Shown in pieces: positions 35,535-40,429 of a stretch of 64,000 nucleotides of DNA; the first letter of the stretch is position 1; each line of letters opens with the position of its first letter. The translations under genes were made by a program, and so were the position numbers. The stretch is from Glaciihabitans arcticus (GTDB lineage: Bacteria > Actinomycetota > Actinomycetes > Actinomycetales > Microbacteriaceae): the NCBI RefSeq assembly GCF_004310685.1, contig NZ_SISG01000001.1:2790001-2854000 (forward strand), read 5' to 3'. Under the pieces are notes generated by a model, which did not search any database, had not been told where the DNA came from, and saw only the letters and a program-made list of their open reading frames with translations.

Positions 35535-36551
35535 TCACAGCCACCGGCGTTTCTTGAACACTCGCCAGAGGATGAACCCACTCACGAACATGGCAGCGAG
35601 CGCGATGGGGTAGCCGAGTGGCCAGTCCAACTCGGGCATGAAGGTGAAGTTCATGCCGTAGATCGTGCCGATGAGCGCAGGGGCGAACAGGATGGCCGCC
35701 CAGGACGAGATCTTCTTGACTTCCTCGTTCTGCGCTAGTGCGGCCTCTGACATCCTGCGCGTCTCTTCGTTCTGCTTCTGGCTGACGAGTGTGGAGTGCA
35801 CGGTGAGTGCATTCTCGAGCAGCGAGCGGAAGGAGTGTGTCCGCTCAGTTATGCGGACCGCGTGGTCGAGGATGTCCCGGAGTGAACGCTGCAGCTCGAT
35901 GTCGACCTTGTACTTGTCGGATCCCCTCTGCAGGGACTCGAGCATGTCGCGCAATGGCGCCGCCGCGCGCTGGAAGGCGATCACCTCGCGCAGCAGTTGG
36001 AAGATGCGACGGGAGACCTGGGTGTCGTTGCCGAACAGCTGGTCCTGAATCTCGTCGATGTCGTTCTCGAGCCCGGCGATGACCGGGATGTACCCATCGA
36101 CCACATCGTCGAGCACAGCGTAGAGAACCGCTTCCGGGCCAAGGCAGAGCAGCTCGGGTTCTGCTTCTAGCCGCTTGCGAATCGATTTGAGGTCCGGGTT
36201 CTCCGCGTGACGGATGGTGACAACGAAGCCGGGACCGATGAAGAGGTGCACCTCTCCGAACTCGACGGACTCCTCCGCGTCGAGGTAGCGTGCCGGCCTC
36301 AGCACGATGAAAAGGGTGTCGCCGTAACGCTCGAGCTTCGCGCGCTGGTGCCCTTTTAATGCATCCTCGACTGCGAGCGGGTGCAGGCTGAACTCGGTCG
36401 CGACGGAACGGATCTCCTCCGGGTCCGGACGATACAGCCCGATCCACGCCATGCCGTCTCGCTCCCGCATCAGCTCGTACGTCTCGTCGAGGGTGTCGGG
36501 GTTGCCGGTGCGTTTACCCTGCACGTAGATGCCGTTGTCGATGAGAGCCAT
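35535..36551 (-). CDS. corA: CorA-type magnesium/cobalt transporter
   Basis: A 338-residue CorA family channel. A cytoplasmic alpha/beta domain and long stalk helix (residues about 1-270, including LHPLAVEDALKGHQRAKLERYG) precede two C-terminal helices. The first ends in the selectivity motif YGMNF, followed by the short periplasmic loop TFMPELDWPLGYP. The C terminus is basic (FKKRRWL). Works as a homopentamer for Mg2+ or Co2+ uptake. ATG with GGAAA upstream, 15 bases behind the preceding gene on the same strand. Confidence 0.95.
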   Translation of the reverse strand: MALIDNGIYVQGKRTGNPDTLDETYELMRERDGMAWIGLYRPDPEEIRSVATEFSLHPLAVEDALKGHQRAKLERYGDTLFIVLRPARYLDAEESVEFGEVHLFIGPGFVVTIRHAENPDLKSIRKRLEAEPELLCLGPEAVLYAVLDDVVDGYIPVIAGLENDIDEIQDQLFGNDTQVSRRIFQLLREVIAFQRAAAPLRDMLESLQRGSDKYKVDIELQRSLRDILDHAVRITERTHSFRSLLENALTVHSTLVSQKQNEETRRMSEAALAQNEEVKKISSWAAILFAPALIGTIYGMNFTFMPELDWPLGYPIALAAMFVSGFILWRVFKKRRWL

Positions 36552-36565
36552 GAGTTTCCGATCGT

Positions 36566-37060
36566 TCAGCTGGTCTTGACAGTGTGGAGCAGTGAAATGC
36601 CCTGGCAAGGCACAACGATGAGGTCGCCTCGCGAGACGTCTGCCGGCAGGTCGGTGGCGAATCCAAAGGCGCCCGGGGTGGCGCACTCGAGCACGACCGA
36701 TGCCCGGTACGCGCCCGATCGACGTCCGATGAGGCGGGTCTCGGTGAGGTCGGTTGAGCAGCCGCTCAGGTCGGCGTTGATGGTCACGTGGAGCCTCAGG
36801 TCGCTGCGCCACTCAGCCGACTGCACCTCGGCGACCACCACTGACGCGAGTTCGCCCTTCGACGGTTCGCTGTGCGGGTGTGCGGGATGTGCCTCATCGT
36901 TATGCACGCACGGGGTGCCGCAGATCTCAGCGAGCCGCACCAGGGAAACTGCGGCGATGATCACGTCGTCCTCGGTGATAACGGTGTGGGCCGGCCAGGC
37001 TTCACTTGCCTCGACGGGGTTCTGTGTCGCGAGCGATTGAGGAGGATCCGATGGTGTCAT
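36566..37060 (-). CDS. Barrel-less LysA-like beta-domain protein (paralogue A)
   Basis: A 164-residue soluble protein without recognised family. Residues about 26-52 read VITEDDVIIAAVSLVRLAE then ICGTPCVHND, the N-terminal pattern of diaminopimelate decarboxylase (LA-x(3)-GTP). The C-terminal part ends DLPADVSRGDLIVVPCQG, like the end of the LysA/ornithine decarboxylase beta-sandwich (LP-x-D-x(3)-GDLLxVP). The PLP-binding barrel that normally sits between is absent. It is a paralogue of the divergent gene at 37232 (shared VSL, LA, CGTPCVH, DLP-D). GGAGGATCC-like purines lie inside the coding start; no clear SD. Function unknown. Confidence 0.7.
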   Translation of the reverse strand: MTPSDPPQSLATQNPVEASEAWPAHTVITEDDVIIAAVSLVRLAEICGTPCVHNDEAHPAHPHSEPSKGELASVVVAEVQSAEWRSDLRLHVTINADLSGCSTDLTETRLIGRRSGAYRASVVLECATPGAFGFATDLPADVSRGDLIVVPCQGISLLHTVKTS

Positions 37061-37098
37061 GCGCTCACTCTTCCACCCGATTCGCGACCGATCGCCGG

Positions 37099-37162
37099 GC
37101 CTAACGGAATCCACACACCTGTGCTTACGGGGGACACCCCGAGCGTGAAGATTCCGTTAGGC
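37099..37162. repeat. 13-bp inverted repeat between the two LysA-like genes
   Basis: GCCTAACGGAATC (37099-37111) recurs perfectly inverted as GATTCCGTTAGGC (37150-37162), 38 bases apart. A third partial copy CGTTAGGG lies at 37187-37194. The two arms are placed 39 bases before gene A and 70 bases before gene B, so each may be an operator for one of the divergent paralogues. Confidence 0.65.
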
Positions 37163-37231
37163 AACGTCGTCACGCCGTGAGCATGTCGTTAGGGATGCGG
37201 ACGCTGCGACTGCTCGGCGTAGACCTGTTCC

Positions 37232-37771
37232 ATGACTCTGACCCGCATGATCCCGTCCTTGAGGCGCACGCTTCCCGATCCGCTCCGCACTGACTTCTGG
37301 CCGGAGGCGACGGTGACGACGGTGCACGACGTGATGATCGCCGGCGTCTCCCTGTCCCACCTGGCCGACGTCTGTGGCACACCCTGCGTGCACACGGGGG
37401 CGGCAGTGATTCCGGGCACCGCCGGTCGTCCTTCGCCGACGAGTGTGACATCCGTGCTGGTGACGGCGATCACAGGCATCGCGACGCATCCTTCCGGTGC
37501 GCTCGTCATCACGGCCGACGCAGCTCTCGACGAGCACCGGGTGGTCTGGTCCGAGTTGCGCCTCATTCGACGGGTTTCCACGGCGCACAGTGGGACGGTG
37601 CTCATCGCTGGTCGCTCCGAGAATCCTGCGGTGGCCGACCTTCCGCTCGACCTCGTCATCGGCGACCTGCTCGCCGCGCCCACGCGGCCGGCCGCGGCGA
37701 CGATGAACGGGCGACGGGCGTCCCGAGCCGACGAGCACAGCGTGCCCGCATGGCTTGCCCAGCTCCCATGA
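37232..37771 (+). CDS. Barrel-less LysA-like beta-domain protein (paralogue B)
   Basis: A 179-residue soluble protein, divergent paralogue of the gene at 36566. The start LPDPLRTDFWPEATV and VMIAGVSLSHLADVCGTPC follow the actinobacterial LysA N terminus (DPL...WP..., GV-x-L-x-x-LA-x(3)-GTP). Residues about 75-160 continue TSVLVTAITGI, ALVITADAALDEHRVVWSEL and ADLPLDLVIGDLLAAPTRP, resembling the LysA C-terminal beta domain. The catalytic barrel with the PLP lysine is missing, so no decarboxylase activity is expected. TAGACC six bases before the ATG is a weak -10. The next gene overlaps by ATGA. Confidence 0.7.
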   Translation: MTLTRMIPSLRRTLPDPLRTDFWPEATVTTVHDVMIAGVSLSHLADVCGTPCVHTGAAVIPGTAGRPSPTSVTSVLVTAITGIATHPSGALVITADAALDEHRVVWSELRLIRRVSTAHSGTVLIAGRSENPAVADLPLDLVIGDLLAAPTRPAAATMNGRRASRADEHSVPAWLAQLP

Positions 37772-38310
37772 GCACTCTCGCGCACCGCTTCGCCGAACAC
37801 ATTCCCCGACCGGAGCGTCGTCGCCGCCGGTGGGGAACCCTCGAGGTCACCTCCCCGGTTCGTTACGGCTGGCGCACCTACCGACTCACGGTATACGCCC
37901 CCGGAACCACCGCCGCGGAGCGCCGACTGCTGGCGCTCGACCGCAATGCCCCGCTGCTGGTCGCGGGCGTCGCGCTCCTGCTCGCGGTGATCCTCCGCCC
38001 GGACGTGCCGCCACTGGGAATCCTGCTGGTCGTGCCGGCGGGTGTCTTCATCGTCTCGGCGGTGCGCGCCCGGGCACGCCGGCTGCGCCAGTCGACCCTC
38101 GTGTTGGTGGTCGCCGAGGTGGACGCGAACGGCACTACCGAGGTGCTCGGCGATCTGTCACTGCGTCGGGATGTCGCGTACTCGCTGCGATGGATGGAGC
38201 ACCTTCGACGCGCTGAACTGATCACGGAGTTGGAATTCCAACGCCGGTGGGCGATCGAGTACGAGCGACTGGCCGAGGGACTCGCTGCCGACAAGGCCGG
38301 CGCTAGCTGA
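37768..38310 (+). CDS. Two-helix membrane protein of unknown function
   Basis: A 180-residue protein. The first 60 residues are basic ([20 protein letters not shown], then [14 protein letters not shown]), followed by two close membrane helices (about 67-105, [18 protein letters not shown] and [16 protein letters not shown]). A charged cytoplasmic tail (about 105-180) contains [19 protein letters not shown]. Related proteins occur in Microbacteriaceae without known function. The ATG overlaps the stop of the LysA-like gene (ATGA), so the two are coupled. Its 3' end overlaps the convergent permease gene by eight bases. Confidence 0.75.
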
Positions 38311-40270
38311 CGTGCACCGAGGGACGCCTCTTGACGTCTCTCTCCGCCTCGCGAAGAACTTCACGGGTGACGGGCGCGATCTCGCCATTGCCGACGAACA
38401 GGAATTTGAGCATGTTGGAGATCGGGTTGCCCTCCGTCCACTCGAAGTAGACGGACGGCACAACGCCCGACACGTCCCGGATTTCCAGCAGTACTGCGGC
38501 AATTGTGCTCGGCACATTGCCGCTCGAGACCTTCAGCACGCGGAAACCGTGAACTGACTCGCCGGTGACCACGAGGTCTTCCTCGAATTCTGAAGAGTCG
38601 GTGGTGTGCACCTCGAGGAAGATCGTCTTCGAATTGCGCGGGATGTGCGAGTAGCGACGCTCGTCGTCATTTTTCGCCTTGTACTCGGCTGCGGTGCCGT
38701 CATCCGGTTCATTGGCGATGATGCGGATCACGCCACGCTCGGCGTCGGCGCTGACGAAGGCCCGGGCCTGTTCGTCGAGGGCGACCGATGTGGCGCGTAC
38801 CTCGAACGACCTGCGCACTCGCGAGACGAGCGAGATGACAAGGATGCCGAGGATGAACAGCCCGGCGATGCGGATGCCGTCCGGGCGCTCGATGACGTTG
38901 ACCACAGTCGTGTAGAGGAAGACCACGGTGATGATGGCGAACCCGATCGTGCGCTTGCGCTGCTTTTTGCGACGCGCCGAGAGGGTGACGGCGACCGAGG
39001 CGGACGTGATCAGCACGAGAACGCCGGTCGCGTAGGCGCCGCCCTGAGCGTCCACATCGGCCTGGAATACGATCGTGATGAGGAAGGCGATGGCGGTGAA
39101 CACCAGTACCAGCGGCCGGACCGCCCGCGCCCACTGCGGGGCCATGCCGTACTTGGGCAGGTATCGAGGCACCAGGTTGAGCAGACCGGCCATCGCAGAC
39201 GCGCCCGCGAACCACAGGATGCAGATCGTGCTGATGTCGTAGGCCGTACCGAAGCCGGCGCCGAGGAACTCGTGGGCGAGGTAAGCAAGGGCGCGGCCGT
39301 TTGCTTCGCCGCCGGACTGGAACTCCTTCTGCGGAATCAACAGGGTGGTGACGATGCTCGATGTGATGAGGAAGGAGCTCATGATGATTGCGGCCGTGGC
39401 GAGCAGCCTGCCCGTTCCGCGGATACGCCCGATCGGCTTCGACTCGGTATCGCTCGCATCGCCGCGCACCTGCGGCATCACGGCCACGCCTGTCTCGAAT
39501 CCGGAGAGACCGAGGGCGAGCTTGGGGAAGACCAGCAGCGCGATGCCGACCATAACGAGCGGGTTTCCATGTTGGGTGTTGAGGGCCGCCCACCAGTCGG
39601 TGACGAGCACGCTGTTCTCGGCGACGTGCGCGAGCGAGACCACGAGCACGACGAGATTGAGGGCGAGGTAGACCGCGACCAGTACGACGGCGATCCCGAT
39701 CGCCTCGCGGAAGCCCTTGAGGAATACGATGGCGAGCAGCGTGACGAGCACGAGGGTGATGATCACCTGATTGCCTTCGAACCACGCCGGGGCGAAGGGG
39801 TTCTCGATAGCGTGCGCCGTGGCATCCGCCGCCGACAGCGTGATGGTGATCATGAAGTCGGTCGCCGCGAAGCCGAGCAGCACCAGGACGAAGATCTTGC
39901 CCGCCCACCAGGGCAGGAGCTTCTCAAGCATGGCTATGGATCCGGAACCCCGGAAGCTCTCGCGGGCGACGCGTCGGTAGACGGGGAGTGCGCCGAACAG
40001 AGTGAGCAGCACGAGCACGATCGTCGCGATCGGGGAGAGGAGTCCGGCTGCAACTGCAGCGATCGCCGGCTGGTAGCCGAGGGTCGAGAAGTAGTCGACG
40101 CCGGTGAGGCACATGACCCGCCACCACGAGTGGGCCTTCTCCGGAGCTGCTCCGTAGGGTCCCTCGTGGCGGCCCTTGCTGTCGACCAGGCCGCTCAGCA
40201 GCCAGCGCCGGAAGGGGCCCCGCGGGTCGGTAGTGGGAGCGGCGGCGACGACATCAGTGGGGGCAGACAT
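38303..40270 (-). CDS. APC superfamily permease with cytosolic C-terminal domain
   Basis: A 655-residue transporter. About residues 45-500 hold 12 predicted helices of the APC fold, starting [23 protein letters not shown], which includes the unwound helix-1 substrate site. A C-terminal cytosolic region of about 150 residues follows ([20 protein letters not shown] onward). Size and layout match KUP-like/amino acid permeases of actinobacteria; potassium or amino acid import both remain possible. AAAGGA six bases before the ATG. The 170-base upstream region has a GAGCCA/TGGCTC hairpin but no recognisable riboswitch. Confidence 0.88.
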
Positions 40271-40429
40271 GCGTTCCTTTTGCGGGCGAAATTCGGGAGC
40301 CGAAGTGATGGCGAGCCAGATGGCTCCTGATCGTACGCCTGCGCGCGGCATCGCCGAGCCGTGTGGGCGTAAGGATTCCGTGAGGATTTTCGAGCCGCTC
40401 ACCCCGGCGTCCTGTCGTCGACAGAGCAG

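Follow-up and report, generated by a model that had tools for sequence, protein, structure and literature searches.

The window, the whole 64-kb stretch of Glaciihabitans arcticus DNA that was analysed, contains a divergent pair of related genes, here called copies A and B, with promoter-like elements between them (Table 1). A first-pass annotation of this DNA had proposed two divergent LysA-like genes at this locus, and both reading frames are present at the positions it gave. The two proteins share 35% identity across 130 residues (E 4e-18), and a whole-genome search found no third copy in G. arcticus. For copy A the ATG at 37060 is preferred to a GTG that would extend the frame to 37114, the less likely start, because the promoter box then lies at the usual family spacing of ~40 nt. 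An Rfam search of the window returned no match, and therefore gave no riboswitch lead.

Table 1. Genes and promoter elements in and around the divergent pair
Feature	Position	Strand	Remarks
CorA magnesium transporter	35535-36551	-	adjoins copy A
Copy A, barrel-less LysA β-domain protein	36566..37060	-	164 aa from ATG at 37060
Tandem box TGTGTGG-ATTC-CGTTAGG, upstream of copy A	37100..37117	-	ends 39 nt before ATG
Tandem box CGTGAAG-ATTC-CGTTAGG, upstream of copy B	37144..37161	+	0 mismatches to CGTNARG-N4-CGTNARG
Half-box CGTTAGG	37187..37193	+	ends 38 nt before copy B start; 32 bp from CGTTAGG of copy B tandem box
-10-like element TAGACC	37220..37225	+	6 nt before copy B ATG
Copy B, barrel-less LysA β-domain protein	37232..37771	+	179 aa
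DUF6611 membrane protein	37750-38310	+	directly downstream of copy B
Polytopic membrane protein	38303-40402	-	no Pfam, NCBIfam or PDB match
Further tandem box CGTAAGG-ATTC-CGTGAGG	40368..40385	+	between APC-type permease (-) and ABC transporter gene (40442 +)

A LysA fold without the catalytic barrel

AlphaFold models of copy B (pLDDT 87.5, pTM 0.81) and copy A (pLDDT 89.2, pTM 0.83) both match fold-type III decarboxylases with LysA at the top, in line with the LysA β domain that the first-pass annotation had led one to expect. All 50 Foldseek matches listed for copy B belong to the fold-type III decarboxylases, and in structural alignments the top match is Mycobacterium LysA (1hkw) for each protein (copy B, Z 12.7 over 144 residues at 3.3 Å; copy A, Z 13.8 over 146 residues at 3.4 Å). 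On LysA, the alignments begin at about residue 3–6 and finish at about residue 416–420 but take in only ~145 residues; they therefore include its two ends and pass over the barrel.

Neither copy has an above-threshold match to a Pfam or NCBIfam model, decarboxylase models included; DUF6111 was dismissed as an identity, its match being sub-threshold only. Single-sequence searches of the PDB were likewise little informative, with one weak LysA match. A profile built from the family alignment (A1, 41 sequences) and searched against all PDB sequences gave significant matches solely to diaminopimelate decarboxylases (1hkv, E 2.4e-10; 2o0t, E 2.6e-10; 5x7m, E 5.5e-5). The 1hkv match consists of two collinear stretches, with profile positions 18–59 aligned to LysA 7–49 and positions 79–158 to LysA 318–407, and a profile-profile comparison with LysA sequences from the family and order of the host independently recovered the same two pieces (16–61 to 18–64, E 1e-4; 75–158 to 326–423, E 2.9e-7). 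When the barrel was deleted from LysA in silico, a single hhalign alignment spanned both pieces with a score of 85.2 (E 4e-13), against a maximum of 21.4 for 100 column shuffles and 12.9 for reversed LysA; a barrel-only LysA profile did not match the family (score 12.8), and no other family gave a better match than LysA. When 395 genomes from the class were searched, the A1 profile found the N- and C-terminal pieces of LysA in most.

In the fold-type III decarboxylase LysA, the β domain contributes the CESGD and GAY active-site residues across the dimer. Both motifs are absent from the family alignments, as is the α/β barrel with its PLP-binding lysine, and the two proteins have no PF02784 match. 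By homology and predicted fold, each copy comprises the C-terminal β-sandwich with the N-terminal strand of fold-type III PLP decarboxylases, and the earlier proposal that removal of the barrel had left the β domain, with the PLP lysine and catalytic residues gone, is supported. The LysA-like N-terminal (WP..T....V.VAGVSL..LA..CGTPCVH) and C-terminal (RLI.R.STA...LP.D...GDL) segments that it rested on are real; the description of the proteins as ending in LP-x-D-x(3)-GDL applies to their LysA-like part, but further residues follow it in both copies.

A promoter box and genomic linkage shared with kdp

Upstream regions of the family have tandem CGTNAGG boxes in common, usually ending ~40 nt before the start, and the core 17-mer pattern of the copy B box recurs in the host's promoter for kdp, which encodes the Kdp potassium pump. 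A score matrix trained solely on upstream regions of family genes gave median scores upstream of kdpA of 27.8 in 20 genomes carrying the family and 26.1 in 20 without it, at about -350, against values of about -7 in sequence lying farther upstream and about -5 on the other strand. The pattern CGTNARG-N4-CGTNARG, at ≤1 mismatch, is present in 39/40 kdp promoters and in 0/40 controls. The experimentally determined KdpE site of M. smegmatis, CCGTAAAGAAACCATCAAGGCC (PMC5401905), differs from the tandem box by 1 mismatch, for which the chance in a random 22-mer is ~1 in 10,000. Within the 3.17-Mb host genome, GTGNRGATTCCGTWAGG is a pattern present at exactly three sites, before kdp and before each gene of the pair; because it was built from the sites recovered, this count shows specificity, and the independent tests are the matrix and the 40-promoter comparison.

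Direct repeats of 11 bp are typical of the whole OmpR/PhoB class, and the box might belong to a different OmpR-family protein controlling both kdp and the family genes. We regard such a regulator as highly unlikely, however, considering how nearly universal the box is among the kdp promoters and how close it is to the M. smegmatis site. A predicted KdpE-type operator lies upstream of the pair, the host encodes a complete kdpABCDE, and we predict with high confidence that the family genes are under KdpE control. The tandem box at 40368..40385, a fourth one of KdpE type, possibly marks an extra member of the regulon. Just before the start of copy B, the -10-like element is kept as GCGTAGACC in many relatives, and its position suggests that the copy B transcript may be leaderless.

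The family is not confined to this genome. A survey of paralogues in Microbacteriaceae, proposed with the first-pass annotation, found it in 32/200 genomes and 20/85 genera, with one to four copies per carrier arranged in tandem, divergently, or alone. A scan of named genomes yielded 46 loci, in Plantibacter, Cryobacterium, Leifsonia, Okibacterium, Glaciihabitans, Clavibacter, Compostimonas, Curtobacterium, Agromyces, Microbacterium, and Leucobacter and, beyond Microbacteriaceae, in Micrococcus, Knoellia, Metallococcus, Actinotalea, Promicromonospora, Scrofimicrobium, Williamsia, and Gordonia; no relatives were found on plasmids or viral contigs. KdpA is present in all 32 carriers of the survey as against 76/168 non-carriers (n=200; Fisher 2e-10, or 4e-5 at genus level), although lineage and genome size confound this co-occurrence in part. 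It is also present in five of five additional carriers, making 37/37 in total compared with 108/200 Microbacteriaceae overall.

Judged by tblastn with identified proteins, kdp genes lie within the 6-kb flanks of 21/46 named loci and near 12/40 fetched loci, a set that overlaps with the named one; about half of the loci do not adjoin kdp, and the G. arcticus pair itself lies ~1.7 Mb from it. G122, the relative whose copies are closest, has a copy on either side of kdpABCDE, and a cassette of kdpDCBA with copies 1 and 2 is common to Leucobacter, Micrococcus, Knoellia, Microbacterium, Actinotalea, and Metallococcus. The protein pairs beside kdp in Knoellia koreensis and Microbacterium lacus (L294/L295) are identical over the matched stretch, an indication that kdp and the pair recently moved together by horizontal transfer. 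Many genomes have kdp without the family, which is therefore not needed for Kdp function. The family and kdp thus share a promoter box, co-occur, and are linked in the genome; this connection with potassium was not foreseen in the first-pass annotation.

Residues D33, T50, P51, P138, and G144 are invariant in A1, and R11, W23, P24, S40, D96, R110, G113, R114, L137, D140, D145, L146, and P150 nearly so. For register the profile alignment with LysA is used, since a combined alignment of the whole series placed the middle of copy B wrongly. Close pairs have dN/dS of 0.11–0.41, and the family genes are therefore under purifying selection. The patchy distribution of the family and a single truncated copy (in G022) might be expected of non-functional LysA remnants kept by hitch-hiking with kdp, but this explanation is extremely improbable and already largely refuted by the dN/dS values, the residues held invariant over many genera, the conserved box spacing, and the copies kept far from kdp in many genomes.

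Probable descent from a LysA paralogue

A second actinobacterial family (the G467 group) and a few other genomes contain a full-length LysA paralogue (LysA2, e.g. L325 and L314), which begins with the same MTL..LPSLR...WP motif as the family in the window; host LysA begins differently. LysA2 keeps CESGD, and several members retain the barrel lysine motif, from which LysA2 is probably an active enzyme. It resembles the pair in this N-terminal helix motif, in its promoter box, found within 150 nt at ≤2 mismatches in 7/8 LysA2 genes, and in its adjacency to kdpEDCBA in one genome (G450), but it is full length whereas the pair has no barrel. By the same criterion the box is present in 0/15 housekeeping LysA genes, in contrast to the pair, and in 2.6% of random sequence. 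In a further genome (G760), kdpEDCBA adjoins a barrel-degenerate version that has neither the barrel lysine motif nor CESGD, and another degenerate version occurs in G635; in barrel-less versions of the G467 group the box lies ~40 nt before the start. Barrel loss is further supported by these apparent intermediates, which range from the full-length paralogue through a degenerate barrel to the barrel-less versions.

In a β-domain tree (147 columns, rooted on LysA by choice), LysA is followed by a grade of paralogues (nodes 0.41 to 0.997), then the degenerate versions, and then the barrel-less proteins, all 93 of which form one clade with support 1.0; the node joining the degenerate and barrel-less proteins has weak support (0.24). 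We consider it very likely that the family descended from a LysA paralogue. The full-length paralogue at 7376-8851 of L325 and the barrel-degenerate version at 8342-9598 of L323 both adjoin kdpEDCBA, and a LysA paralogue in that position is possibly a potassium-regulated decarboxylase.

Proposed function and relation to known systems

We propose that the pair are free-standing fold-type III β-sandwich domains whose ancestor, a LysA-type decarboxylase paralogue, would already have been Kdp-linked and would have lost its catalytic barrel later. Their transcription would most likely be switched on by the response regulator KdpE, together with kdpFABC, under potassium scarcity, and the product, as a protein without a catalytic site, would most likely work by contact, as a binding or adaptor module whose target would be the Kdp machinery (the pump or the KdpD sensor) or some other part of the potassium response. 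Along the series, catalysis was lost first and the barrel after it, while the helix motif, the β-sandwich, and mostly the box were kept, which implies a function that is probably non-catalytic and tied to potassium. Taken whole, a non-catalytic binding module of the potassium response, belonging to the KdpE regulon and descended from a LysA paralogue, is the best explanation and one that we hold with moderate confidence. The putative molecular target, namely the Kdp machinery through contact with pump or sensor, is named more tentatively. Equally tentative is the suggestion that the leftover β domain might be a dedicated, horizontally spreading Kdp accessory touching pump or sensor, and with it a new class of potassium-response regulator.

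The conserved cysteines raise another possibility. The CGTPCVH segment that had been singled out for its two cysteines is real, but the cysteines are common rather than universal across the family: in A1, C48 is present in 27/41 sequences, C52 in 33/41, and H54 in 30/41, and a third cysteine near the C-terminus in 32/41. Together, C-x3-C-x-H and the C-terminal P-C could form a metal or redox site by which a putative ligand or metal sensor reports ion status. Most canonical members do possess C48, C52, H54, and C151 together, and transporters of the CorA, CDF, and APC types are recurrent neighbours of family genes; however, several members are missing some or all of these Cys/His residues, copy B has no last cysteine, and the first protein of the mobile cassette has TGTPALL at the motif, so that we judge a sensor of this kind unlikely.

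The pair is also to be compared with known decarboxylase relatives. It shares with actinobacterial LysA (1hkv/1hkw, 5x7m) the N-terminal segment and C-terminal β-sandwich, in order and predicted fold, but at ~165–180 residues as against ~450 it has neither the barrel and PLP lysine nor CESGD and GAY. Antizyme inhibitor (PDB 3btn) has the same fold (Z 7.8 with copy B, 8.7 with copy A) and, like the trypanosome AdoMetDC prozyme, is a non-catalytic decarboxylase paralogue; both keep a full-length fold and act on polyamine enzymes, whereas the pair has no catalytic domain and is linked to potassium. Such dead paralogues are known to regulate enzymes (prozyme, PMC5201418; antizyme inhibitor, PMC3084279), and by this precedent the proteins might be β-domain mimics that dock on housekeeping LysA and tune lysine/diaminopimelate flux in potassium or osmotic stress. 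Their predicted fold is that of the LysA β domain, and LysA is the sole Orn/DAP/Arg decarboxylase found in the host genome. Against this stand the loss of CESGD, GAY, and the barrel side of the dimer interface, the lack of any lysA linkage in the loci examined, and linkage, promoter, and co-occurrence evidence that all favours Kdp, and docking on LysA is accordingly improbable.

The pair resembles the KdpE regulon and Kdp accessory proteins in promoter box, co-occurrence, and linkage with kdp; it differs from them in being derived from LysA, with no Kdp subunit ancestry, and in not being needed wherever kdp occurs. The first-pass annotation knew of no described system of this kind, and we likewise found no library model, and the open-licence papers searched described neither a barrel-less LysA nor any link between LysA and Kdp. 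Relative to the known dead-paralogue regulators, the loss of the entire catalytic domain is plausibly new, and the more so if a Kdp partner were shown. These observations provide a function lead for a protein family without a Pfam or NCBIfam model, and likely new members, with a testable operator, for the little-studied actinobacterial KdpE regulon. They also preserve apparent steps from an enzyme to a non-catalytic protein through loss of an entire catalytic domain, and suggest that the role of a LysA-type paralogue in the potassium response outlived its chemistry.

Several neighbouring genes recur at family loci. The DUF6611 protein has relatives next to family genes in a Glaciihabitans MAG (L136) and in two Leifsonia (L277, L281), and CorA is beside or near family genes also in G135, L287, L273, and L275. 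For the polytopic membrane protein at 38303-40402, a KimA-like label was dropped, there being no database match and its plasmid relatives carrying the names "amino acid transporter" or "APC family permease". Relatives are also found next to family genes, in G122 and in several Cryobacterium, and the protein may therefore be an ion-response transporter. A small uncharacterised protein (L146 8117-8590, without a Pfam match, and L149 6002-6535) is found beside family members in G167, G109, and G034.
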